Source of the DNA: a virus
Virus record (IMG/VR): IMGVR_UViG_3300026519_000038
Location: 1 to 35,051 of that record
DNA length: 35,051 nt
Strand: one strand, 5' to 3'
Shown in pieces: positions 8,678 through 27,601 of the stretch. Position 1 is the stretch's first letter. Every line of letters starts with the position of its first letter. Made by a program: the position numbers and the translations under genes. The notes under the pieces were generated by a model. That model searched no databases. It saw only the letters and a list, made by a program, of their open reading frames with translations, and was not told the origin of the DNA.

Positions 8678-10918
8678 ATGTCAAAAGCACTTATTGGAGA
8701 CCTTAGAGCAAATCTAGGGCTTGATAGCTCCAAGTTTCGCAAGGGTGCGCGTGGCGTAAATAACCCTCTTAGAGACATGAGGCGGCAATTTATGGTTGTT
8801 GGTGCCGCCGCCGCCGCGTTCGGCGGGGCCGTAACTGCTGCTGCGCTAAAGGGTGCAAAGCAAATTGATAACTTGGCCAAATCGTCACGTCGCCTTGATG
8901 CTTCAATCGGCGGATTCCGTGCCTTGCAACTTGCTGCTGATGATGCCGGTATAAATCTTTCGAGCCTTACCAATGATGTGCAGACAATGAATCGCGAGTT
9001 GTCACGGGCTGGCGAAGGCGGTCCGATAGACGACGCACTGGCACGGCTTGGCATGTCTGGCCGAGAGTTGCTATCGCTGGATGTGGATAGCAGGATTGCA
9101 GCAATATCTGACCGGATAAAAGAGCTTGGTATAAACTCTGGCACGGCCACAGCTATTTTGCAGGACATGGGAGTAAGAAATCGCGAAATGGCGCTGCTTA
9201 TGATCGGCGGTGGTGACGCTATCAGGTCTGCCCGTGATGATATTGATGCTTACGGTTTGGCACTAAATGATGTCGATGCCAGCAGGATCGAGACCGCGAA
9301 CGACCAAATATCGCGGCTATCAATTATAACGGAACGATTTGGACAGCAGCTTGCCTTGGAAATAGTACCGACACTTGGGCGCATGGCGGAGGCGTTCACC
9401 GAATCCATGCGCGAAGGTGGGTTATTGCGTGGCGTGATTGACGGTCTGGCTGGAAACATACAAAGGATAGGAACCTATGTAACGACGGCTGTTGCGCTGT
9501 TTGGCGGCAGGTATGTCGTGGCGTTGGTTGCCGCTGCTGTGTCCACCGCGAAACTATCAGGCGCGCTTGTTTTTTTGCGTGGGGCATTGATCCGCACAGG
9601 GTTCGGGGCGCTGATAGTGGGTGCCGGTGAATTGGTATATCAATTTGGCAAACTTATTTCTAGGGTTGGTGGCTTTGGGGAATCCATGCGGCTAATGAAA
9701 GACGTTTCTGTCGAGGTGTGGGAGCGAATAAAGCTTGGCGGTCAGTCAATGGGGTCTGCTCTTGGCTCTATTTTTGCCCGTGTCAGGGCTGGCTGGCTGT
9801 CAGTGCTGGCTAACATGCAAAAATCATGGTCAGGCTTTTTGCGGACGGTATCAAATGGCCTCGCTAATGTTCCGGGCATGGACGGTGCTATGCTTGCGAC
9901 TGGCAACGCTGCAATCATGGCTGGCGCGGCGTGGGTCGAAATGAGCGCAGAAGCAGACGCTGCTAAAGCTGCGGCTGATGGTATGGTTGCTGCATCCGGT
10001 GAAATGGCGGCGGCTGCTGTGGCTCCACTGAAGGCCATGGAGGCGTTGCGTGATGCCATGACAATCGGTCGCAATAAAGAGGCTGGCGGCGATGGCGACG
10101 ATTACGGCGGTGCCATTGAGATTGCGGCACCTGTTGCAATAGATACCAGCGCTGCCCTTGCTAACATGCAGGCGCTGGCGATTAGCCTTGATCCAGCACA
10201 TGCCGCGCTGGAAAAGTATGATGCAACGGTGCGGACCCTAAACGAAAGCCTGAAAGCTGGAGTGATTGATCAGGTCCAGTATAATAATTACTTGGCGCTT
10301 GCCGAGGAAGCCCTTAACGATGTTGAGTCGGCAAGCGGTGGTGCTGGTGCTGCAACATCAAAAATGAGTGACGCTATGCGCGAGGCTGCTGATGCTGCGG
10401 CGACGCAGGTCGCAGCCACTGAAAAAACAGCGGCAGCGGCTGATAATCTTGGCAATACTTTTGCGTCTGCATTTGCTGATATATTGACCGGCACCGATAC
10501 AGTTATCGGCGGGCTGGCAAAGTTGGCTGGTCAACTAGGCAAGATGGCTTTGATGGAGGGCCTCAAAGGGCTGTTTGGTAAGCTGTTGGGCGGCTTAAGC
10601 GGCGGCGGTAACTGGCTGGCAGATTTGTTTGGTATGGGCGCAAACGCGAACGGCACGGAAAACTGGCGCGGTGGGATGTCATTGGTGGGAGAGCGTGGGC
10701 CTGAAATTGTGGACATGCCGAGAGGGTCAAAAGTTTACAACGCGCAGGCCACTGACAATATGCTTAAAGCCAAACCTCAAGGTCCGGCGAATGTCAGCGT
10801 TGAACCGAAAATAATCAACCTTTTTGATATGTCTGTTGTCGGTGATTGGCTGTCTGGTCCTGACGGCGAACAAATAATATTGAACCATATGACGAGAAAC
10901 GGGGTGGTAAGTGCCTGA
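8678..10918 (+). CDS. tail tape measure protein
   Basis: This is the 746-residue protein that sets tail length and probably helps DNA cross the envelope. It opens with GDLRANLGLDSSKFRKG, a typical tape-measure N-terminus. Long alanine-rich helical stretches follow, with hydrophobic segments around residues 265-320 that may insert in membranes. Near the C-terminus is the recurrent module SLVGERGPEIVDMPRGSKVY. By the lambda rule of thumb (about 0.15 nm per residue) the tail would be near 110 nm; that is an estimate. The ribosome binding site is AAAAAGGTAGG upstream of ATG 8678. Confidence 0.92.
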   Translation: MSKALIGDLRANLGLDSSKFRKGARGVNNPLRDMRRQFMVVGAAAAAFGGAVTAAALKGAKQIDNLAKSSRRLDASIGGFRALQLAADDAGINLSSLTNDVQTMNRELSRAGEGGPIDDALARLGMSGRELLSLDVDSRIAAISDRIKELGINSGTATAILQDMGVRNREMALLMIGGGDAIRSARDDIDAYGLALNDVDASRIETANDQISRLSIITERFGQQLALEIVPTLGRMAEAFTESMREGGLLRGVIDGLAGNIQRIGTYVTTAVALFGGRYVVALVAAAVSTAKLSGALVFLRGALIRTGFGALIVGAGELVYQFGKLISRVGGFGESMRLMKDVSVEVWERIKLGGQSMGSALGSIFARVRAGWLSVLANMQKSWSGFLRTVSNGLANVPGMDGAMLATGNAAIMAGAAWVEMSAEADAAKAAADGMVAASGEMAAAAVAPLKAMEALRDAMTIGRNKEAGGDGDDYGGAIEIAAPVAIDTSAALANMQALAISLDPAHAALEKYDATVRTLNESLKAGVIDQVQYNNYLALAEEALNDVESASGGAGAATSKMSDAMREAADAAATQVAATEKTAAAADNLGNTFASAFADILTGTDTVIGGLAKLAGQLGKMALMEGLKGLFGKLLGGLSGGGNWLADLFGMGANANGTENWRGGMSLVGERGPEIVDMPRGSKVYNAQATDNMLKAKPQGPANVSVEPKIINLFDMSVVGDWLSGPDGEQIILNHMTRNGVVSA

Positions 10919-12029
10919 TCTATGGCCTTTTGTACCAAGGATTGATGTAAAGGATGTGCTGTCGTTTAAGACAGACATCCGCCGAACACGCGTTGGTGAG
11001 GTCAGGGACGGGATGCGGGACGCAAGACGCATTATCAGCATGGAGTTCTTTCTGGACGATTCGAAAAACGCATTGGCAGAAAGCATATTCAGGGCTAACG
11101 TTGCGGGCGATTTGTTGGTGCCGCTCTGGCCGGAAATGACAAAATATACTGTGGCAAAGCCGATAGGGGAAACGGTGTTCGCCGTAGATAATCCTAGCGA
11201 CTATTTGTTAGGTGGGTATGCCGCAATTGCGTTTGCCAGCGAGTCAATAGAGGCAGTCCAGATTACAGATATTGGGCAACATAGTATAACGGTTGCGTCT
11301 CCAAGCACCTTTGCGGTTGACGCGGTGATTCCTGTCGGGGCCGCTTATTTTGTTGGCGGTCTTGGCGGGTCTAGAATATTTACTGGTATGTCTGCCCGCA
11401 CCGCTGAATTTGCGTTCAGGAATGATTTGCACATAGGGGAAACGCCGTTTGATCAATACCTAGGGGCTGATTTAGTTACTGACCCAAGTGTGATTGCCGC
11501 ACCTGTAGAATCCAATATATCAATGGCGCGGGTCTTTGTTGATAACGAATCTGGGCCGGTTGTAATAGAGCCGATGCGGGATATAATAGACGGGACCAGC
11601 AAGATAGTTTATATTGACCATGGCATGGCCGCAATGATCAGGCGCAGGATGTGGCTGCGTTATATGCGCGGGCGTGATAAATCTTTTTGGATTCCAACGT
11701 GGGGTAATGATTTAACGATGACTGCACCGGCCAATAATACGCAATCTTATATTGACGTTTCGCCGCTACAAGGCAGTCATTTAGCAATGGTTGGTCGGCA
11801 TATAGTAATTTATGATGGTGCCGGATTTATGCCGAGAAAGATAACCGCGTCATTTGTGGTTGGTCAATCGTGGCGGCTTGGCATTGACCCGCTTGATAGG
11901 CAGGTTGAAGCCGATGTCGGAGTTATGTTTTTAAGCAGGATGAGGCTTGACGCCGATAAAGTCGAGATGGCCACCACAGGTATATATTACATGGAAACCA
12001 CGCTTCCCGTTGTCGAGGTGCCGGAATGA
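10911..12029 (+). CDS. tail-tip protein following the tape measure, possibly distal tail protein
   Basis: This 372-residue protein starts at a GTG overlapping the tape measure stop and ends overlapping the hub gene (ATGA). It opens PDLWPFVPRIDVKDVLSFKT and ends with a beta-rich MRLDADKVEM and PVVEVPE. An aromatic segment near residue 258 (FWIPTWGNDL) recurs in proteins at this position in related phages. The position between tape measure and hub is that of the distal tail protein, but it is longer than the DUF2460 type and I do not recognise the family with certainty. Confidence 0.65.
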   Translation: MPDLWPFVPRIDVKDVLSFKTDIRRTRVGEVRDGMRDARRIISMEFFLDDSKNALAESIFRANVAGDLLVPLWPEMTKYTVAKPIGETVFAVDNPSDYLLGGYAAIAFASESIEAVQITDIGQHSITVASPSTFAVDAVIPVGAAYFVGGLGGSRIFTGMSARTAEFAFRNDLHIGETPFDQYLGADLVTDPSVIAAPVESNISMARVFVDNESGPVVIEPMRDIIDGTSKIVYIDHGMAAMIRRRMWLRYMRGRDKSFWIPTWGNDLTMTAPANNTQSYIDVSPLQGSHLAMVGRHIVIYDGAGFMPRKITASFVVGQSWRLGIDPLDRQVEADVGVMFLSRMRLDADKVEMATTGIYYMETTLPVVEVPE

Positions 12030-12898
12030 GTTTTGCGGCCATAGCATCCCTTGTATATGGGAAAAAACCGTTCTTCCTTTACGAGTTTTTGCGGGGTAAT
12101 GATTTGTGGCTTTTTACATCGCTAAGCCGCCAATGGGTTACCGTGCCAGATGTTTTTGATTTGCCGAATGTTTTTGCCGAACCTGATATGTTCAGCAGGA
12201 CGTGGGAGCCATCACCGATCAAGCACGGCAAGATCACACATAGCCAAAGAACAGCGCAGACCGAATTGCCGATCACATTTCCTCAATCAGATCAGTTTGC
12301 AAGATTGTTTTTGTCACCGCTTGGGATGGACGCAACGCGCGTTCGGATATTTAGGAGCTACGAAAATGATCCAGACGCTGAACTTGTTACTATTTACAGG
12401 GGCAGGGTGCTGCAAGCAACACCGAAATATAAGGCGGGGACTATAGACCTGATTTGCGGCGGAGGCCTCGGTGACTTAGACCGCAAGGGCTTATCTGCTG
12501 TCATGCAAGGACCATGCAGGCACGTTGTCTATTACGGCAGTTGCGGTCTCAATCTATCTGACTGGACAGTTAATGGCACTGCCACAGGGATTTCTGGTGT
12601 GACGGTAACCGTCCCAGAGGCTGCGGCCTCGGCGGACGGGTTTTATACATCTGGGCTTTTTGAGTTTGCTGGTGCGATGGAAATGATTGACGCCCACGTA
12701 GGCGACCAGTTGACGTTGGCGGCGCCTGTTATCGGGTTGGCAGATGAAATTGCTGCCAGTGGATCGGCAGCGGTTGGAATTATGCGCGGGTGTGACAAAT
12801 CTTTCGCGACTTGCAGGGATGCGTTTGCAAACGATGATAATCATGGTGGTTTCCCCCATATGACAATTAGCCCGTTTGATGGCAGGAGTATCAGATAA
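12026..12898 (+). CDS. tail hub protein, DUF2163/BR0599-like, lambda gpL-like
   Basis: This 290-residue protein has the N-terminal beta domain of DUF2163 proteins (TAQTELPITFPQSDQFARLF) and the C-terminal BR0599 signature DAFANDDNHGGFPHM. Four cysteines lie at 164, 173, 256 and 263, giving CX8C and CX6C pairs. As I recall, lambda tail-tip protein gpL binds an iron-sulfur cluster through four C-terminal cysteines with these spacings, and the RcGTA hub is related. An iron-sulfur cluster here is therefore likely (inference). It would form the ring below the distal tail protein. Confidence 0.82.
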   Translation: MSFAAIASLVYGKKPFFLYEFLRGNDLWLFTSLSRQWVTVPDVFDLPNVFAEPDMFSRTWEPSPIKHGKITHSQRTAQTELPITFPQSDQFARLFLSPLGMDATRVRIFRSYENDPDAELVTIYRGRVLQATPKYKAGTIDLICGGGLGDLDRKGLSAVMQGPCRHVVYYGSCGLNLSDWTVNGTATGISGVTVTVPEAAASADGFYTSGLFEFAGAMEMIDAHVGDQLTLAAPVIGLADEIAASGSAAVGIMRGCDKSFATCRDAFANDDNHGGFPHMTISPFDGRSIR

Positions 12899-13137: not shown

Positions 13138-13340
13138 TGGACCATGATGATAAGGTAAGACTGGGAGATTTACGCGCCGCTGGCATATGCTGGCGTAGGG
13201 GTGCTAAGTTATTTTTGATACATCACGAAATAAACCCTGATGAATTTCTTAAATCTGGCATAGATGCCGATATATTGCTGGCTACAGGTAATGCAATAGC
13301 AAAGAGAGCCGTGGAGGTTAGCCGTGGGCGGAAAAAATGA
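13137..13340 (+). CDS. small conserved tail-region protein of unknown function
   Basis: This 67-residue protein reads VRLGDLRAAGICWRRGAKLF followed by EFLKSGIDADILLATGNA. Short proteins with this layout (an AAGxCxxGA-type start and GIDAxxLLATGDA) occur directly upstream of J-like tail proteins in several phage groups, to my recollection, without known function. It starts in a TAATG overlap and its end overlaps the tail-tip gene by 17 bases, so it is expressed with them. A role as a tail-tip assembly factor is inference only. Confidence 0.7.
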   Translation: MDHDDKVRLGDLRAAGICWRRGAKLFLIHHEINPDEFLKSGIDADILLATGNAIAKRAVEVSRGRKK

Positions 13341-16300
13341 AAAGCCAACAATAGGCCACAAGCACTACCTTGGGGCGCAATTTATTTTGTGCTTGTCCAG
13401 TATTGATAAGCTTTTGCGTATAGACGTTGACAAAAACGTCCTATGGCGTGGCGCAAGCAGTGGTGGGCGCATCAAAGTTGATAAGCCAGACCTGTTTGAT
13501 AGTTCCATACCGGAGGGCGGAGTTTCTGGAAATATCGACGTAATGCTTGGCGACCAAGATCAGCCTAAAAATGATTATCTTGTCAGTCTTTTTAAGGGTG
13601 TTGCGTCTGCATTTCGTGGGGTCACGTCTGTTGTTTTGCGGCAGGTTTATCTAGGCAACAGCCCGTATCTGCGAAGCTGGGCGTTTAAGGTGCAGCGTAT
13701 ATATAAAATTGATGGAGGGCCGCAATGGTATCCAGAGCGCGCAGGTATATCTGTTTCGGGGATGGAGGTTGGTGACGCCGGTATTTACATAGCAATGGAT
13801 GCGTCAATTTCAATGAATGGGGGCAGGATGCAGCGGCAAAAAGATGCCGTAGTGGGGCTGTTAGAGTCAATAAGAGATGATAGTAGCGCGCCGAATGATA
13901 TTCATATTGTAACTTGGGATGATAGCCCGATCGCCTCTATCGAGCGCAGGGACTGCACGGATGATGATTATACTGATTTAATCGATTGGGTATCTAACTT
14001 AAGCAATGCAACGACCGGTAGCACAAACTTTGCAGCCGCATTTGATGGGCTGTATGAATTTTATACTGGCAGTCCTTACGACCCAAGTTTTGTAGGCGAC
14101 ATTATGTCTAGCTTGGTTGCTGGCAGGTTTGGTGATTTGTTAGACATAGACAGTTCCGGCGGCGGGACAGAGCTAAAGCGTCGGATAGTTATATTTTCGA
14201 CAGATGGCTTCCCATCAACAGATACCGATTTTGACGATGCGCTAACACTTACCGGCCAACTTGAAAACCTTGAAATATTTTGTGTAAACATCGACAACCC
14301 CGATACTCAATACACCGAAATACTTGATAACACGCAAGGCGACGGTGTGCCGGTTGTCGACAGCTCAAATCCTGATGCGCTTGTCGATGCGTTCAGGGGG
14401 GCGCTGTCATCTGGGCGTGATATGAACCCATCCCACATTCTGCGCGAGGCTATAATAGCAAAGGATACCGGCGGGTATGGTGATGATTATATTATTGGTG
14501 ATAGTTTCCGTGCTGCGGCTGATTTGTTTTACTCCGAGGGTTTCGGGTTGTCATTTATCTGGAAAAGCGACTTAAGCCGCAGCGATTTCATGCGGTCGGT
14601 AGAGGCGCATATTGACGCCGTTACATATGAGCACCGGAAAACAGGTAAGTGGGAGATCAAGCCGATAAGGGCCGATTATGACAAGGCGTTACTACCTGTT
14701 TTTGATCGCAGCAATATTATGGACTGGACTAACTTATCGCTCCCGACCGATAAATCCTCGCTGCCGAACCAAATAACCATCGAATACATGGACCGCATCA
14801 AGGATGAAATAGCCGCGCTTACGGTTTCTAATCCGGTCAGAGTTGCACAAGCCGGGGCGATAATAAGCAAAACTATAAAATATCACGGCATCCATGGCGT
14901 GGCTCTTGCGTCAAGGGTTGCGGCGCGTGATTTACTTGTTGCATCATCCTTGATTAGGTCTGGGACAATCCGCGTAACTGACCTGCCAGTCTACCTAAAT
15001 CGTGGTGACCCGATATTGCTAAATGAGCACGATCTAGGCATTGTTGATATGGTCGCTAGGATAACAAAAATTGTTGATGGTGACGGTCGTGACAATAGCG
15101 TCCTTGTCGATTGGGTTGAGGATAAGTTCGATTTGCCGTCGCAAGCGTATGTGGTTGTTGATCCACCTGTTATAGGTGATGTGACAAATTACCCGCAGCC
15201 AGCAAAATATCGAATGGTGGAGGAGTCACCATATTACGAAATGGTCAAGCGGGTCGGGCAGGTAGAGACTGATTTGCTTTTGGATGATGACCAGACTATA
15301 GGATTCCTAAATGTAAGTTGTGAAAGCCCAACGCCAGACGCGATAAGCGCTTTGATAAGTGTGCATGATGGCACTGATTTCGCCACTACTGGCGCGGCGG
15401 ACTTTATGGTTGTGTCAGAGGTGCTTTCCAGCTTGACACGGCGCGCCGATCAAACAAAAGTTGCAATCCGCAGCACCCCTGACCTCGCGTTTGTTCGGGT
15501 CGGGTCTATCGCGTCTATCGGGTCCGAGATTGTCCGTGTGGACGCCATAGATAACGGCTTGGATATGTTTGCTCTTGATGATGTGTTTTCGGTATCGGAT
15601 GTATTTGCTGACGGAGCGATACTTACAATCGGGCGTGGGTGCTTAGACACAGTGCCGCAGCCGCACCCTGCCGGTTCGCAAGTGATGTTTTGGGGCGATG
15701 TGGCATCTTCGGACCGTGTCGAGCGGTTCCAGTTCGAGAGTGTTCAGGTTAAGCTGTTGACCAAGACAATGCGCGGTACGCTTAAGGTTGGAGCAGCGCC
15801 AACTGATATTGTGATATTCGACAGCCGAGCAATACGCCCGTTTCCTGTTGGTGATTTGCGAATAAATGGCGAATACCGTGATACAATTGCAGCGGGTCCG
15901 TTGTCTATAACGTGGACTGGCAGGGACAGGACATTGCAAACAACCAGCATTGTAGAGGATCACACGTTTGGCAACATTGGTCCAGAGGCCGGGACAACTT
16001 ATGTCGTCCATATTGCAGCGGTTGATGATGCTGGTGGCGAGGTGCTTGTGCTTGACGATGTGGACAAAGGTGCCGCTATGTCACATACGTTTGACCTCGA
16101 CGATTACCAGTATGATATATTTCTTTCTCCTGATGTGTTTGCGATGCCTGACGCATTCGGGACTATATTGCCAGTTGAGACAGCGGCGATTAAAATAGAG
16201 GTCAGATCGTTCCGCGACGGAATGCAGTGTTGGCAGTCGCCATCTGTTTATGCTATATTATTCAGGCCACCCGAAATACTGGCATTAGGATCACCGGACG

Positions 16301-16347
16301 AAATTGAATTTTTGGCACCAACAAACGTAACTTTGACAGAGGTTTAA
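13324..16347 (+). CDS. J-like tail-tip protein with an inserted von Willebrand A domain
   Basis: This 1007-residue central tail-tip protein starts at GTG 13324, with GTGGAGG just upstream. Residues 1-140 carry the family N-terminus (GHKHYLGAQFILC, EGGVSGNIDVMLG, VVLRQVYLGNSPYL). Residues about 366-640 carry the J-like/phage-tail_3 part (MNPSHILREAI, FYSEGFGLSFIWKSD, RSNIMDWTNL). Between them, residues about 150-362 form a VWA domain with a complete MIDAS: D159-x-S161-x-S163, T234 and D294 (FSTDGFPS). VWA domains bind ligands through the bound metal, so this domain could contact a host surface protein (inference). The C-terminal third is beta-rich and unassigned. Confidence 0.88.
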   Translation: MGGKNEKPTIGHKHYLGAQFILCLSSIDKLLRIDVDKNVLWRGASSGGRIKVDKPDLFDSSIPEGGVSGNIDVMLGDQDQPKNDYLVSLFKGVASAFRGVTSVVLRQVYLGNSPYLRSWAFKVQRIYKIDGGPQWYPERAGISVSGMEVGDAGIYIAMDASISMNGGRMQRQKDAVVGLLESIRDDSSAPNDIHIVTWDDSPIASIERRDCTDDDYTDLIDWVSNLSNATTGSTNFAAAFDGLYEFYTGSPYDPSFVGDIMSSLVAGRFGDLLDIDSSGGGTELKRRIVIFSTDGFPSTDTDFDDALTLTGQLENLEIFCVNIDNPDTQYTEILDNTQGDGVPVVDSSNPDALVDAFRGALSSGRDMNPSHILREAIIAKDTGGYGDDYIIGDSFRAAADLFYSEGFGLSFIWKSDLSRSDFMRSVEAHIDAVTYEHRKTGKWEIKPIRADYDKALLPVFDRSNIMDWTNLSLPTDKSSLPNQITIEYMDRIKDEIAALTVSNPVRVAQAGAIISKTIKYHGIHGVALASRVAARDLLVASSLIRSGTIRVTDLPVYLNRGDPILLNEHDLGIVDMVARITKIVDGDGRDNSVLVDWVEDKFDLPSQAYVVVDPPVIGDVTNYPQPAKYRMVEESPYYEMVKRVGQVETDLLLDDDQTIGFLNVSCESPTPDAISALISVHDGTDFATTGAADFMVVSEVLSSLTRRADQTKVAIRSTPDLAFVRVGSIASIGSEIVRVDAIDNGLDMFALDDVFSVSDVFADGAILTIGRGCLDTVPQPHPAGSQVMFWGDVASSDRVERFQFESVQVKLLTKTMRGTLKVGAAPTDIVIFDSRAIRPFPVGDLRINGEYRDTIAAGPLSITWTGRDRTLQTTSIVEDHTFGNIGPEAGTTYVVHIAAVDDAGGEVLVLDDVDKGAAMSHTFDLDDYQYDIFLSPDVFAMPDAFGTILPVETAAIKIEVRSFRDGMQCWQSPSVYAILFRPPEILALGSPDEIEFLAPTNVTLTEV

Positions 16348-23056: not shown

Positions 23057-24115
23057 TTAATTAAATTTTATCGGCATCAACGCGCATGTTGTGTCTTGAT
23101 CCGTGCCGGTTATTAAAAATGGGTCAGTCGCTCCATTTCCTGAAATATTCACTGGGCCAAGTTCCGCCACAAGCGGCTTTAATAAGGCGTTATTTAGACC
23201 AAAAGACGCGCCAACACCGACCTTTACACCTGCGGTAACCTGCGACCCGTCAAAATCAATGCTTTGTGTGATAGTCCCTGATTCTGGGTTGATTTTGATT
23301 GTCTTGGCGTCAAATTTCCGCAAGCAAGATATATCCAGATCAACCGATATTTTATTGCTTGGCTTTGGGATTAACTTTTGCACATCTGGAAATTTACAGT
23401 CAATCGTCTTGGATCGTAAAATGCCGTGTTTTGTTTTGAATGTCACTTTGTTATCTTTGTGCAATGCAATATCCACAGACCCGTTGCCTTTTTTGTCTAA
23501 CATAGCCAGCAAAATTTTGACAGTTGAAGCTGGCAGAATGAAGCCGTCACCAGTCCACGCAAAACCTGTTTTCACCCGCATTAGTCGGTGCCCATCCGTT
23601 GCAGCCAACGCCAGCTTTCCGTCAATCGAATGGAAGTAAACGCTGTTCAGGTAAAAACGGGTCATTACGGCTGAAATGCAAGTTCTAACCCGCCGCAATA
23701 GCCGGTGCAATTCGGCCTCTGGAATTGATACCCGTTCGACAGGCGGGCCAACTTTCAATTCCGGTTGATCGCTGGCATCAATGCCAAGATATACGGTCAG
23801 AACGTCACGCCCAACCTTTAAGGTCAAATAATCAGCCTTAACTGAAATGCTAACTTCACCAGACAAACAATTCAAAAACCGAAGCATATTATTCGGCTGA
23901 AACATAATATCAAAATCGCCCTTACCGCTTCCGGCAATATGGGTTGTGATATGCTGATCAAGGTTTGTTCCTTGCAGCCGTAAATCGCCTCTAAAAACAG
24001 TCATTCGCATCAGGCACAGAATCGGCACTGCTGCGCGACGCTCAATAGACAGTTTTGTCATTTTAACTGCATCGTGCAGTTCTTTTGTGTCTACAGTTAT
24101 TTTTGCGTTTGTCAT
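23057..24115 (-). CDS. dnaN: DNA polymerase III beta subunit (sliding clamp) homologue
   Basis: This 352-residue protein has the three-domain clamp layout. Recognisable parts are RFYLNSVYFHSIDGKL and ALAATDGHRLMRVK (domain 2, like the E. coli RYYLNGMLF and VATDGHRLA segments), FPDVQKLIPK (domain 3 start, like FPDYRRVLP), and the end CALMPIKFN (like VVMPMRL). The length is close to the bacterial protein (366). It would hold the host replicative polymerase on phage DNA, as no polymerase is encoded here. Its ribosome binding site is CGGAGAA just before ATG 24115. Confidence 0.9.
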   Translation of the reverse strand: MTNAKITVDTKELHDAVKMTKLSIERRAAVPILCLMRMTVFRGDLRLQGTNLDQHITTHIAGSGKGDFDIMFQPNNMLRFLNCLSGEVSISVKADYLTLKVGRDVLTVYLGIDASDQPELKVGPPVERVSIPEAELHRLLRRVRTCISAVMTRFYLNSVYFHSIDGKLALAATDGHRLMRVKTGFAWTGDGFILPASTVKILLAMLDKKGNGSVDIALHKDNKVTFKTKHGILRSKTIDCKFPDVQKLIPKPSNKISVDLDISCLRKFDAKTIKINPESGTITQSIDFDGSQVTAGVKVGVGASFGLNNALLKPLVAELGPVNISGNGATDPFLITGTDQDTTCALMPIKFN

Positions 24116-24133
24116 TTTAATTCTCCGTTTTGG

Positions 24134-24463
24134 TTAATCTGATATGGCGTCAATCTGCGCCCTTGTTTGCTCAATATAGTTTGTGTCGAATCCCCATTCA
24201 TCAATCCAGCTTTCCTTGCCGTTGTGGATTGCGTCAGGCCCCCATTGATGGTGAATTTTGCATAGCGGTATGCAATCCCGTGCGGGTGTCTTTCTTGACC
24301 CAAACCTACCACATATGGTATGGTGGCAATCACTTGGCGGTGGTGCGTTGCATACGGCGCACGGCAAGCCTTTTACTGCCAGCATATAATCCAGATCGGC
24401 TTGTGAAGCTGGTTCCTTGCCGCGCTTCTTCGGCTCTGGCTTTGGTGCAGGTGTGAATGTCAT
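24134..24463 (-). CDS. Ref-like RecA-dependent nuclease / HNH protein
   Basis: This 109-residue protein has a zinc-rich HNH core: LPCAVCNAPPPSDCHHTICG (C35, C38, H47, H48), IPLCKIHHQWG (C68, H71, H72), and a closing HNGKESWIDEWG (H80). This is the pattern of the P1 Ref/DUF968 family, nucleases that cut at RecA-made D-loops. It sits beside recombination and replication genes. The N-terminal 20 residues are basic (KPEPKKRGKE) and may bind DNA. It overlaps the DUF1367 gene by four bases. Confidence 0.75.
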   Translation of the reverse strand: MTFTPAPKPEPKKRGKEPASQADLDYMLAVKGLPCAVCNAPPPSDCHHTICGRFGSRKTPARDCIPLCKIHHQWGPDAIHNGKESWIDEWGFDTNYIEQTRAQIDAISD

Positions 24464-24897
24464 AAAAACCCCATTATCTCATTTAACGATTTATCAATAT
24501 CAGATTCGGAATGTGACGTAAGTATTTTGGCCAGAATTATATCAACTGTTTTGGAATACAGCTCTTGAAACTCGGCTTCATCCATACTGGCAAAGCTGAT
24601 TGATTTAGCCACCAGCCGCAATTCCCCGCTGATTGTCCAAACCTTATCAAAAAACCCCGCCATGATAGATAATTCATCACGGAATCTATCGTAATTCTTG
24701 CCGGTTCCGTCTGGCGTTTCCCACTGCGAGAATGCGTAGGTGACCAACGCAAAATATTTCTTGTGGAATGCATAATTGCGCGGGCGCGTTACATCAATGT
24801 TCACAAGCTGTCCTAGCTTAGTTCCAGTCAGCCATTCCTCGGCGTTTGGGTCTGCGGGGATTAACCCGCCTTGTGATTTTAGCCAGTTGGTTTTCAT
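24460..24897 (-). CDS. DUF1367-family phage protein
   Basis: This 145-residue protein contains VTRPRNYAFHKKYFALVTYA, the mark of DUF1367 (a xRPRNxxFHrKfFALL motif), followed by a helical C-terminal half. The family is common in phage recombination modules next to Ref/NinB-like genes, but its role is unknown. It is coupled to both neighbours by ATGA overlaps. Confidence 0.75.
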   Translation of the reverse strand: MKTNWLKSQGGLIPADPNAEEWLTGTKLGQLVNIDVTRPRNYAFHKKYFALVTYAFSQWETPDGTGKNYDRFRDELSIMAGFFDKVWTISGELRLVAKSISFASMDEAEFQELYSKTVDIILAKILTSHSESDIDKSLNEIMGFL

Positions 24898-25091
24898 TTT
24901 AATCGTCTACCTAATACCTCGCCGATAATGACGACCGCCAATACTATTATAGCAAAAATCGTGTTCCCAAACATAATCCAAAGATAGGTTAAAAGGTTGC
25001 CCCAGTCAGTATCCATCATATTAAGTTGCACTTTGTCGGTAAGTGGGGCCGCAAATAAATACCCGGTTGTAAGTTGGAATAAATATTTCAT
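24894..25091 (-). CDS. small membrane protein
   Basis: This 65-residue protein has a weakly hydrophobic start (MKYLFQLTTGYLF) and one strong membrane helix near the end (IFAIIVLAVVIIGEVLG) closed by RRLK. No family was recognised. It overlaps the ClpX-finger gene upstream and the DUF1367 gene downstream. Confidence 0.62.
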   Translation of the reverse strand: MKYLFQLTTGYLFAAPLTDKVQLNMMDTDWGNLLTYLWIMFGNTIFAIIVLAVVIIGEVLGRRLK

Positions 25092-25312
25092 TGTCGTTCT
25101 CCTGTTGGTTTAAGAGATTCGTGTTTTTCGAGATGGCGTTCAATTCCTCCTTCGTCGATAATAACACTACAATCTGCAACGCAATTTTGGCAAATGTGAG
25201 TGCCGTTCGGACTTGCAATAAGGACAACGTCTTTTTCGAAACCACCAATAGCACAAAAATCGCAGCACATGGCAAAACTATTGCTGCCCTCAAATCTTAC
25301 AATGGTATGCAT
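25088..25312 (-). CDS. free-standing ClpX-type zinc finger protein
   Basis: This 74-residue protein is essentially the zinc-binding domain of ClpX without the ATPase. C17 and C20 (CCDFCAIGG) and C41 and C44 (HICQNCVADC) reproduce the ClpX CxxC...CxxC pattern, and the segment VVLIASPNGTHICQNCV parallels the ClpX LIAGPxxxICDECV. In ClpX this domain dimerises and receives substrates and adaptors such as SspB. A phage copy could compete for adaptors or redirect host ClpXP (inference). The GGAG ribosome binding site lies within a recurring leader. Confidence 0.78.
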   Translation of the reverse strand: MHTIVRFEGSNSFAMCCDFCAIGGFEKDVVLIASPNGTHICQNCVADCSVIIDEGGIERHLEKHESLKPTGERQ

Positions 25313-25432
25313 GTCGTTCTCCTTCGTTGGTTGAAATATTAGCTACACTGCGCAATCGTTAGTCAGTTACAAATGCAGTGTTTGGCAATTAGCCCATGGC
25401 TTTGCGAGCAGAGGCGTCAGGGGCATTAAGTA

Positions 25433-25470
25433 GGGATAGGCCGTTCGTGTCGCGGTTTCGAGCCTATCCC
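25433..25470. repeat. 9-bp inverted repeat with 20-base loop
   Basis: GGGATAGGC (25433-25441) and GCCTATCCC (25462-25470) form a perfect stem in the longest minus-operon stretch without a normal gene (25313-25526). A second small hairpin, GCCAAC-TGGGG-GTTGGC, lies at 25478-25494. Neither has a T-run. They could stabilise or process the operon mRNA. The stretch otherwise holds only a 14-codon frame starting at 25508 behind a good AAAGGAG site, and nothing else I recognise. Confidence 0.6.
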
Positions 25471-25526
25471 ATCACAAGCCAACTGGGGGTTGGCCTGTGT
25501 GTTCTCATTGTCATTCTCCTTTTTGT

Positions 25527-25628
25527 TTAGTTGTTGGTAAACTCTGCTAGATGTGAGTGAATATCGTGGTGGCACTTAGGGCAGCGCCAAGAAATAGCGC
25601 CTAAATGGTATATGCCAAGATATATCAT
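25527..25628 (-). CDS. 33-residue mini-protein with a cysteine/histidine knuckle
   Basis: This short frame starts directly after the ssb stop codon (TAA then ATG) and ends in TAA. The peptide begins MIYLGIYHLGAISW and contains WRCPKCHHDIHSHL, a compact CxxC-HH cluster that could bind zinc. Reinitiation after ssb would express it. The ribosome binding site is not obvious, so confidence is moderate. Confidence 0.5.
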   Translation of the reverse strand: MIYLGIYHLGAISWRCPKCHHDIHSHLAEFTNN

Positions 25629-26099
25629 TTAGAATGGAATTAAATCGTCCAGATTGCTGGCACCACCTTGATCACCACCATACCCGCCAGCCTGATCACC
25701 ACCACTGCTTTCTGTTCCAGTGCTGTTGTGATCGCGCTGACCATCAGACTTGCCGCCCAGCATAACCAGTTTGCTGTCAAACCCTTGCAGGACAACCTCG
25801 GTTGAATAACGGTCATTGCCGGATTGGTCTTGATATTTTCTGGTCTGCAATTTGCCCTCGATATATATGGTTGAACCTTTTTTAAGGTATTTTTCGCATA
25901 CGGTCACAAGGCCATCCGAGAAAATCGCGACAGAATGCCATTCTGTCTTTTCCTTGTTCTCGCCTGAATTTTTATCCCGCCAGCGTTCAGAAGTCGCAAC
26001 ACGCAGGTTGCAAACCCGCCCGCCGTTTCCGAATGTCCTGATTTCAGGGTCAGCCCCCAGATTGCCAATAAGAATGGCTTTGTTAACTGAACCGCTCAT
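25629..26099 (-). CDS. ssb: single-stranded DNA-binding protein
   Basis: This 156-residue SSB has the OB fold ([15 protein letters not shown], then [20 protein letters not shown] and [18 protein letters not shown]), a glycine-rich linker and the acidic tail LDDLIPF that recruits replication and repair proteins. It would coat single-stranded phage DNA during replication and recombination. Its start overlaps the exonuclease stop. A truncated copy of its first 22 codons lies at 26815-26886. Confidence 0.95.
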
Positions 26100-26764
26100 A
26101 TCCCAACTCCTTCAAATATCTTGTTAATCTGGCGCACCTTTTCCACATCAGAATTGCAATATTCCGATATTTCATCATGTTTGCCAGCCAGCCAATAATC
26201 ATAAACATCCTTGCCGGTCATTCCGGTTTTGCCTTCAAGGCCAAGAATGCCGCATAATTCATCAAGCCCGATCGTATCACGAGCGCCAGCCCATAAAATT
26301 GTGGTGTCACGAATCCCAACATCCCAAGGCTTTGCATGTGGCCGCATCCATGTTGGAACCAGAATGCCATGAATAATGCAGCGGTGCATGATAAACTTTA
26401 GGTCAAAGCCGCTGATATAATGGCCGCATAGGACTGGGTTTGGGTTGCCAACATCAGATAATATCAACGATATTTGAGATATAGCCATTTCTAGGCCTTC
26501 TTTTTCATCAGCCCTAGTTTGTATTTTATACCCAAAAACTTGGCCATCATCCACCGCAAAAGAAAGGCTGCAAATTTGACCATAGCCGCCATTAAACGAT
26601 TGCTTGCGGTAAATATCATCCTTTGCCTTTTCGCCTTTTTCAACAAACCACTTATCAATGGTTTCCTGTTTTGTCATGTTCCCGGGCGGCTTTACCGTGA
26701 TTGCGTCTTTGCCTGATTCTGGTCCGGGGATTGTCTCGATGTCGATATACAGGGTCGATTTCAT
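26096..26764 (-). CDS. DEDDy 3'-5' exonuclease
   Basis: This 222-residue protein has all three exonuclease motifs: ExoI YIDIET (D8, E10), Exo[13 protein letters not shown] (D121) and Exo[13 protein letters not shown] (Y202, D206), which is the DEDDy arrangement of PolB-type proofreading exonucleases. It stands alone rather than fused to a polymerase and may serve recombination or proofreading in trans. It is coupled to ssb by an ATGA overlap; GGAGTTGG near its own 3' end serves as the ssb ribosome binding site. Confidence 0.87.
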
Positions 26765-26765
26765 T

Positions 26766-26834
26766 TTACTTGCCTTTCAATAGCGGCTCATTGTCTTTCA
26801 GAGATTCCGGCGTTTCATCCGGCGCGAATTTCAG
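26766..26834 (-). pseudogene. orphan 3' end related to the gene at 27603-28001
   Basis: In the frame ending at TAA 26766-26768, the text reads LKFAPDETPESLKDNEPLLK. Its first eight or nine residues and 30 identical bases (26806-26835 against 27646-27675) match the end of the 132-residue gene upstream; after that it diverges. It looks like the remaining 3' end of a lost paralogue or longer allele of that gene. Confidence 0.55.
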
Positions 26835-26886
26835 GGTCAGCCCCCAGATTGCCAATAAGAATTACTTTGTTAACTGATCCGCTCAT
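26815..26886 (-). pseudogene. truncated ssb copy (first 22 codons)
   Basis: This frame starts [20 protein letters not shown], differing from the intact SSB only at position 8 within the shared part, then runs into RAG and a stop. It is part of a 96-bp duplicate and is joined to an unrelated gene end at a short shared CCTGAAAT. It cannot make a functional SSB, although it keeps a good ribosome binding site and may be translated as a 23-residue peptide. Confidence 0.7.
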
Positions 26887-26923
26887 ATCCCAACTCCTTC
26901 AAATATCTTGTTAATCTGGCGCA
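26828..26923. repeat. 96-bp direct repeat of the exonuclease/ssb junction (26041-26136)
   Basis: The two stretches match at 93 of 96 positions by my count. The copy carries the last codons of the exonuclease, its stop, the GGAGTTGG site and the first codons of ssb. In the copy, TAATG after the 225-residue gene opens a 13-codon frame with the exonuclease C-terminus ([13 protein letters not shown]). Confidence 0.9.
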
Positions 26924-27601
26924 TTAATAAGCTTCCTTTTCGATTGATTGTTCGACGCCGTTTATATCAACGGTCTTGTGGTTTATGCGCACCCATTCCT
27001 CGATAAATGCGGTCATGTCACCCCGAAAATTAACGGCAATGAAATTTATCACCGCCTTGTGATCGACAATATCGTATTTGTGAACCTTGCGCATACCTTT
27101 TACCGTATCCTTGGCCTGCGACCTTGCGGCGTTGTCAGCATCTATGGCTGCTTGCTGTGCCGCCTGTGCCTCGCGCTGCGCCTCAATATCGCTGGCATTC
27201 GCCTCGCGCACCTTGCGTTCAGCTTCCAGCCTTGCGGCGTTGGCTTTTTCCCAAGCCGCGTTTCTATCGGCAGCTTTTTGATCGGCCAGATGTTGCTTGA
27301 ACTTCGCAACACAAGCAACAAGCCCGGTGCTAAGCAATTTCAGATCATCAATCGTTGGCTTCCACCGTGCAATAGCGGCCTTGTGAGCATCAAAATGCGG
27401 TGCGCTTTCGGATTTCTGCCCGGCGGTCACGTCCTTGATTGCCGCCTTGATTTGCTTTGTTAAAGCATCAACGGCCTTCATTTGGCTTTCGTCTTGGACC
27501 GGCTCACCATCAAGCCAATTCTGGGCCTCTTGGATTGCATCGCCATACGGCGCAGTTGCCTCGTCAATTGGATTCGGGGGGTTATTATGGCCTTTTGTCA
27601 T
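26924..27601 (-). CDS. coiled-coil early protein, conserved in alphaproteobacterial phages
   Basis: This 225-residue protein starts MTKGHNNPPNPIDEATAPYG and has AQNWLDGEPVQDESQMKAVD, which I recall as a recurring opening of phage recombination-region proteins. Residues about 105-165 form a long alanine- and charge-rich coiled coil (EAERKVREANASDIEAQREA). The last 55 residues are globular (VHKYDIVDHKAVINFIA). A nucleic-acid or recombination accessory role is plausible from position but unproven. GGAGAT precedes the start. Confidence 0.7.
   Translation of the reverse strand: MTKGHNNPPNPIDEATAPYGDAIQEAQNWLDGEPVQDESQMKAVDALTKQIKAAIKDVTAGQKSESAPHFDAHKAAIARWKPTIDDLKLLSTGLVACVAKFKQHLADQKAADRNAAWEKANAARLEAERKVREANASDIEAQREAQAAQQAAIDADNAARSQAKDTVKGMRKVHKYDIVDHKAVINFIAVNFRGDMTAFIEEWVRINHKTVDINGVEQSIEKEAY

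Follow-up and report, generated by a model that had tools for sequence, protein, structure and literature searches.

The window considered here, 35,051 nucleotides spanning positions 1 to 35,051 of the IMG/VR virus record IMGVR_UViG_3300026519_000038, encodes the baseplate hub (tail-tip, J-like protein) of a siphophage tail of the JBD30/Chi type. Residues ~147-363 of this hub are a von Willebrand A (VWA) domain with a complete metal-ion-dependent adhesion site (MIDAS), and the insertion site is an exchangeable cassette, which in related hubs is empty or holds a VWA or unrelated domains. We propose, with a probability of about 0.62, that the domain is an adhesin serving as a lateral host-gripping module that replaces the side fibres. 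We infer that a metal-dependent adhesin is the best-supported function, given that the MIDAS is conserved, that the insertion site is a cassette and that the same phages lack lateral fibres; metal binding, exposure, adhesion, fibre replacement and the ligand are each treated below as putative.

The protein was assigned to the JBD30/Chi-type hubs by homology over the hub domains and by the presence of neighbouring distal tail and upper baseplate genes. Searches against the PDB matched the hubs of JBD30 (8rk3, E 8.3e-83) and Chi (8vjh, E 9.5e-67), the same two hubs were the top structural matches of the full protein, and the N-terminus can be aligned with both from residue 1. An AlphaFold2 model of the whole hub built from 40 aligned sequences had a mean predicted local distance difference test (pLDDT) of 82. 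The gene and its two hub parts are as follows.

13324..16347, plus strand: baseplate hub or tail-tip (J-like) protein, 1007 amino acids, GTG start, matching phrog_1101 (E 4.8e-204).
13324..13749, plus strand: hub part before the insert, residues 1-142, ending in QWYPERAGI and aligning to residues 1-142 of the JBD30 hub.
14416..16344, plus strand: hub part after the insert, residues 365-1007, starting with RDMNPSHILREA and aligning to the JBD30 hub from residue 150.

Hub residue 142 thus corresponds to JBD30 residue 142 and residue 365 to residue 150, which means that 222 residues replace 7 in a clean insertion, at a loop joining two hub segments. An earlier note, made from the sequence alone, had placed such an insertion in the tail-tip protein, and this is confirmed, as are the MIDAS positions it gave (D159-A-S161-I-S163, T234 and D294); the flanking motifs it named begin at residue 134 (QWYPERA) and residue 367 (MNPSHILREA). 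The insert and its motifs are listed below.

13762..14412, plus strand: inserted VWA domain, residues ~147-363, supported by PF00092, the model and structural matches.
13798..13812, plus strand: first MIDAS motif, D159-x-S161-x-S163 (DASIS), with D159 and S163 in 34/34 and S161 in 33/34 copies.
14023..14025, plus strand: second MIDAS motif, T234, a threonine in 31/34 copies.
14203..14208, plus strand: third MIDAS motif, D294 followed by G295, both in 34/34 copies.
14326..14358, plus strand: family signature DNTxxDGVPVV, residues 335-345, conserved in tail VWAs.

The VWA fold and complete MIDAS claimed by the earlier note are likewise upheld. Pfam family PF00092 matched residues 154-245 at 24.6 bits, over the curated cut-off of 23.8 (E 3.3e-5), and a match to VWA_2 fell under its own cut-off. 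Modelled alone, the domain reached a mean pLDDT of 89.6 and a predicted template modelling score of 0.86, and this model aligned with solved VWA and integrin I domains over 168-187 residues, nearly the whole domain, at Z 19-20.5. A profile of the phage VWA domains searched against the PDB retrieved collagen VI, BatB, pilus-tip adhesins, TRAP and integrin alpha-L. In the whole-hub model strands and helices alternate at residues 152-361, and the five MIDAS residues fall in the three canonical loops as predicted: after strand 152-159, before helix 236-239 and after strand 286-293.

Conservation was assessed among 34 VWA copies less than 70% alike, in which D159, S163, M164, D294 and G295 are invariant. 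Mean pairwise identity was 0.38 for the domain, against 0.63 for the hub before the insert and 0.53 after it. Since the domain is more variable than its flanks and the MIDAS is invariant or nearly so, the MIDAS site is kept as the remainder drifts. The conservation of DNTxxDGVPVV in tail VWAs is almost equal to that of the MIDAS. The window VWA also has an extra loop at 14065-14178 (residues ~248-285), modelled with low confidence and common to only a few relatives (L017, L053, L086 and L120).

A one-off acquisition of the domain was considered and rejected, the VWA being present at the hub site across many phages. A hub relative was present in 750 phage records, and 20 of these matched the VWA. 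It occupies the same hub site in Bordetella phages MW2, CN1, CN2 and FP1, Erythrobacter phages ZS04 and R6L, Stenotrophomonas phages QH3 and Bhz59, Xanthomonas phages Elanor and Mallos, Variovorax phages BAPIC_0004 and V45iii and Pseudomonas phage PaMx28. Viral and genome contigs added a large number of Rhodobacterales prophages, with the VWA at this site too, and a few from Gilliamella, Acinetobacter and Desulfovibrionales; these contig scans overstate the share of VWA carriers, since they kept the top matches to a query that itself bore a VWA. In viral contigs the single window hub gave no match as a query, and an alignment query was required. No near-identical phage was found in the phage collection, and there was no plasmid match. 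In one Gilliamella contig (L173:5975-8601) the hub gene lies in two frames with the break within the VWA, reflecting either a broken gene or a sequencing error. This breadth calls for a change to the description of the protein as an otherwise ordinary J-like protein with a new way of gripping: the insertion is common to a broad phage family, and for one member, the tail protein of Bordetella phage MW2 (APL99216.1), the record already bears the label 'von Willebrand factor type A'.

The earlier note had also stated that the flanking parts stand next to each other in relatives. This holds for JBD30, Ab18 and Bhz54, where the corresponding linker has 7 residues, and for Chi, where it has ~10, and fails for the many hubs that carry a VWA or another domain there. 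Across relatives, the site between WYxxKAxI and DMNPAHIIRE contains 7-19 residues, a VWA, or unrelated domains of ~80-470 amino acids. In a tree built from 80 hub cores, 12 changes are needed to account for the cassette type and 8 for the VWA label, and the starred branches force 5 of these 8. Some of the non-VWA inserts bear a faint likeness to sugar-binding jelly rolls (L169, L177, L181), a laminin-G lectin (L195) and a BNR/sortilin-type propeller (L214).

Copies of the VWA also occur in two neighbouring baseplate proteins of relatives, the distal tail protein and the upper baseplate protein. Of the latter family, the window has the following member.

12026..12898, plus strand: upper baseplate protein of the Gp84/BR0599 family, 290 amino acids, matching PF09356 (E 7e-12), 8vjh_D (E 4.9e-18) and 8rk3_g (E 1.1e-10).

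The window copy has no VWA, and some relatives' copies bear an N-terminal one. A VWA inside the distal tail protein was found at L059, L072, L149, L151, L152 and L156 and in Rhodobacter phages RcTitan and RcSpartan. In the VWA tree these distal-tail copies are interspersed with the hub copies, and the starred branches force at least three changes; the VWA thus moves between the genes of three baseplate proteins. Two contigs of a metagenome-assembled genome labelled Anaerolinea thermophila carry three related tail modules with a double VWA (L130, L136, L141), from mis-binning or from several prophages.

This distribution bears on two other explanations. The insert could be a passenger without selected function, as might be expected of a site that accepts many domains. 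This seems very unlikely: a MIDAS invariant or nearly so over deep divergence and a VWA that recurs in three proteins both point to selection. The main rival to the adhesin is a structural clip, in which a neighbouring tail protein would supply an acidic residue to the MIDAS metal, so that the VWA joins baseplate subunits without gripping a host. VWA domains often mediate protein-protein contacts within complexes, and in some phages the hub and the upper baseplate protein, in contact with each other in JBD30, each bear a VWA. However, many phages, including that of the window, have a single VWA that may be in any of the three proteins, the hub site tolerates no domain or unrelated domains, and the VWA varies more than the hub around it, so that we regard the clip as unlikely.

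The reading of the VWA as an adhesin in place of fibres rests in part on what surrounds the hub. In JBD30, the side fibres gp47 and gp48 catch the type IV pilus, and the distal tail protein gp49 wraps the fibres with its domain I (residues 2-74) and points outward with its domain II (residues 75-174) (PMC11445458). The corresponding part of the window contains two genes.

8678..10918, plus strand: tape measure protein, matching phrog_8462 (E 1e-47) and overlapping the next gene.
10911..12029, plus strand: distal tail protein, 372 amino acids, lacking the N-terminal fibre-holding arm and aligning only to residues 187-542 of JBD30 gp49 and 174-531 of the Chi protein.

The overlap of the tape measure gene with the distal tail gene leaves no room for fibre genes between them, and no gp47-like open reading frame was found anywhere in the 35,051-nt window. 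The window phage therefore lacks the lateral-fibre baseplate of JBD30, having neither gp47/gp48-like genes nor the distal-tail arm. In Ab18, whose cassette is empty, the two genes after the tape measure gene match two JBD30 baseplate chains (8rk3/8rk5; E 5.7e-24 and 6.2e-15), and we read this pair as probable gp47 and gp48 from size, order and PDB entry. The distal tail protein of Ab18-like phages with an empty site has ~180 additional N-terminal residues. RcTitan and RcSpartan, whose distal tail protein contains a VWA and whose hub linker is short, have no fibre genes after the tape measure gene. The distal tail protein of the VWA phage ZS04 (L003:3231-4820) has an unlike N-terminal extension of ~140 residues, jelly-roll-like in appearance, for which Pfam names no family.

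Fibres were counted at 193 loci with enough upstream sequence. At 82 loci at least one of the three baseplate proteins bears a VWA, and none of these loci has fibres. The hub site is empty at 67 loci: all 64 without a VWA elsewhere have fibres, and the 3 with a distal-tail VWA, which are counted among the 82, have none. With another hub insert fibres occur at 4 of 47 loci, 2 of those 4 being mis-parsed; L295 and L296 were rejected as exceptions, the extra segment lying elsewhere and the hub site being short. Among representatives less than 75% alike, fibres are present in 0/16 with a VWA, in 34/34 with an empty site, all of which also have the arm, and in 2/30 with another insert. When only representatives found with hub queries are retained, fibres are missing from all 44 that hold a VWA or another insert and present in all 4 whose site is empty. 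The VWA is thus found where the pilus-gripping fibres are missing, and it probably replaces them for host capture.

Several observations weigh against this reading. Two loci, L283 and L288, combine an insert of 82-90 amino acids with gp47-like fibres and are the only real exceptions. A fibre query was the source of most of the fibre-bearing loci and of 30 of the 34 empty-site representatives, so that the presence of fibres was given for those 30, and the empty hub was not. The insert and fibre traits change only ~4 times each on the tree and yield 2-4 independent pairs, too few for a phylogenetic sign test to reach significance; the coupling of VWA and fibres is strong in counts and unproven after phylogeny. 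The jelly-roll, laminin-G and propeller matches of the non-VWA inserts are all below the curated Pfam cut-offs. Finally, further genes downstream of the window hub may encode the true receptor-binding protein.

As a mechanism for the adhesin, we suggest the following. In the JBD30 plan the gp47/gp48 fibres, held by the distal-tail arm, make the first catch of the pilus. In the lineage of the window phage the fibres and the arm are missing and the hub adhesin cassette would have assumed first contact, a role that in relatives may be played by other cassette domains or by a VWA carried on either of the two neighbouring baseplate proteins. Binding would resemble that of integrin I domains, with a divalent metal held by D159, S161, S163, T234 and D294 and its coordination completed by an acidic residue of a host surface protein; final contact would be made afterwards by separate tip proteins.

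Another alternative is a conformational trigger: a ligand bound at the MIDAS would, as in integrin I domains, send a signal into the hub that sets the moment of tip opening, instead of giving grip. Integrin I domains change shape upon ligand binding. The insert lies within the hub, whose tip in JBD30 opens during infection (PMC11445458). We consider a trigger rather improbable. A wider and quite doubtful possibility is that a whole class of Gram-negative siphophages gave up pilus-binding side fibres and acquired in their stead integrin-like MIDAS domains, mobile between three baseplate proteins, whose grip on an acidic site of a host surface protein, perhaps a pilus, would be regulated by metal and pulling force and coupled to hub opening.

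Other viral VWA domains suggest one more explanation, a MoxR-type co-chaperone that helps to assemble the virion, a role proposed in jumbo phages and the Acidianus two-tailed virus; viral VWA proteins beside MoxR AAA+ ATPases have been described (PMC7911831, PMC7824862). Here, however, the VWA is part of the hub itself, and the tail genes scanned around it have no AAA+ ATPase and hence no MoxR pair: there was no AAA+ match among the tape measure, distal tail, upper baseplate, 77-amino-acid and hub proteins and the two downstream proteins. A co-chaperone is barely credible, and it is less likely than the adhesin, as are the trigger and the neutral passenger.

Comparison with known systems places the window hub among both viral and cellular relatives. 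JBD30 (Casadabanvirus, 8rk3) and Chi (8vjh) have the same hub on both sides of the insert and the same distal tail and upper baseplate neighbours, with ~7-10 residues where the window phage has the VWA; JBD30 also possesses the gp47/gp48 side fibres and the distal-tail arm, both of which the window phage lacks. The Bordetella Vojvodinavirus MW2 (APL99216.1) shares the hub-site VWA and complete MIDAS, at 38% identity over the protein, and differs in a second VWA on its upper baseplate protein. In RcTitan and RcSpartan, the gene 22 product places a MIDAS VWA in the same baseplate, also without lateral fibre genes; unlike in the window, this VWA is inside the distal tail protein, and the hub site has only ~21 residues. 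Integrin alpha I domains, pilus-tip VWA adhesins (SpaC and the 'cell wall surface anchor' 3tvy/3txa) and the vWFA domain of the Aeromonas large adhesion protein (9das) have the same fold and MIDAS, and these adhesins are displayed on a surface or at an appendage tip, as the phage tail VWA would be. They are cellular, whereas the window VWA is a virus-tail module with its own DNTxxDGVPVV signature.

The gpJ protein of lambda, with a fibronectin type III domain inserted in the hub, is a precedent for a foreign domain within a hub domain (PMC10721106). Its insert has a fibronectin fold without MIDAS, and the likeness concerns the fact of insertion. A Milano baseplate chain (8fqc), a Foldseek match of the full hub, was not used as a precedent because the Milano paper says nothing of a VWA or integrin domain and because the chain is absent among the 50 matches listed for the VWA-only model. 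VWA domains are known in other phage proteins, of the MoxR-associated and tellurite types (PMC7911831, PMC7824862). A literature search outside subscription papers found no description of a MIDAS domain in a siphophage baseplate, of the cassette, of moves between three genes or of the exclusion of fibres. What was already known, then, is the VWA in other phage proteins and one label on a Bordetella phage tail protein.

Some further features were observed in these hubs and in the window. Rhodobacterales hubs (L036:5953-9129, L104:5953-9339 and others) have a second insertion of ~120-170 residues near hub residue 45, which precedes RIRIDKPDLFGGESREGG and is distinct from the VWA site. In the hubs of MW2, ZS04 and Elanor (L002:6001-6058, L003:6001-6046 and L005:6001-6052), in-frame homology extends 15-19 codons upstream of the annotated start and overlaps the previous gene; the annotated starts look too late. 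On the reverse strand of the window, positions 23057-27601 hold a module for replication and recombination of a kind usual in phages; its genes include NinB/Orf, a single-strand binding protein, exonucleases and a polymerase processivity factor/RusA-like match.

New here, as far as that literature search reaches, are the MIDAS domain of a siphophage baseplate, the hub cassette, the moves between three genes and the exclusion of lateral fibres. If one inserted domain can replace fibres, the hub loop would lend itself to the plugging in of host-recognition modules, and this would account for the way these phages change from one type of host target to another. The adhesion mode of a phage would then be predictable from its sequence, and integrin-type metal-dependent adhesion would have a place in phage tails.
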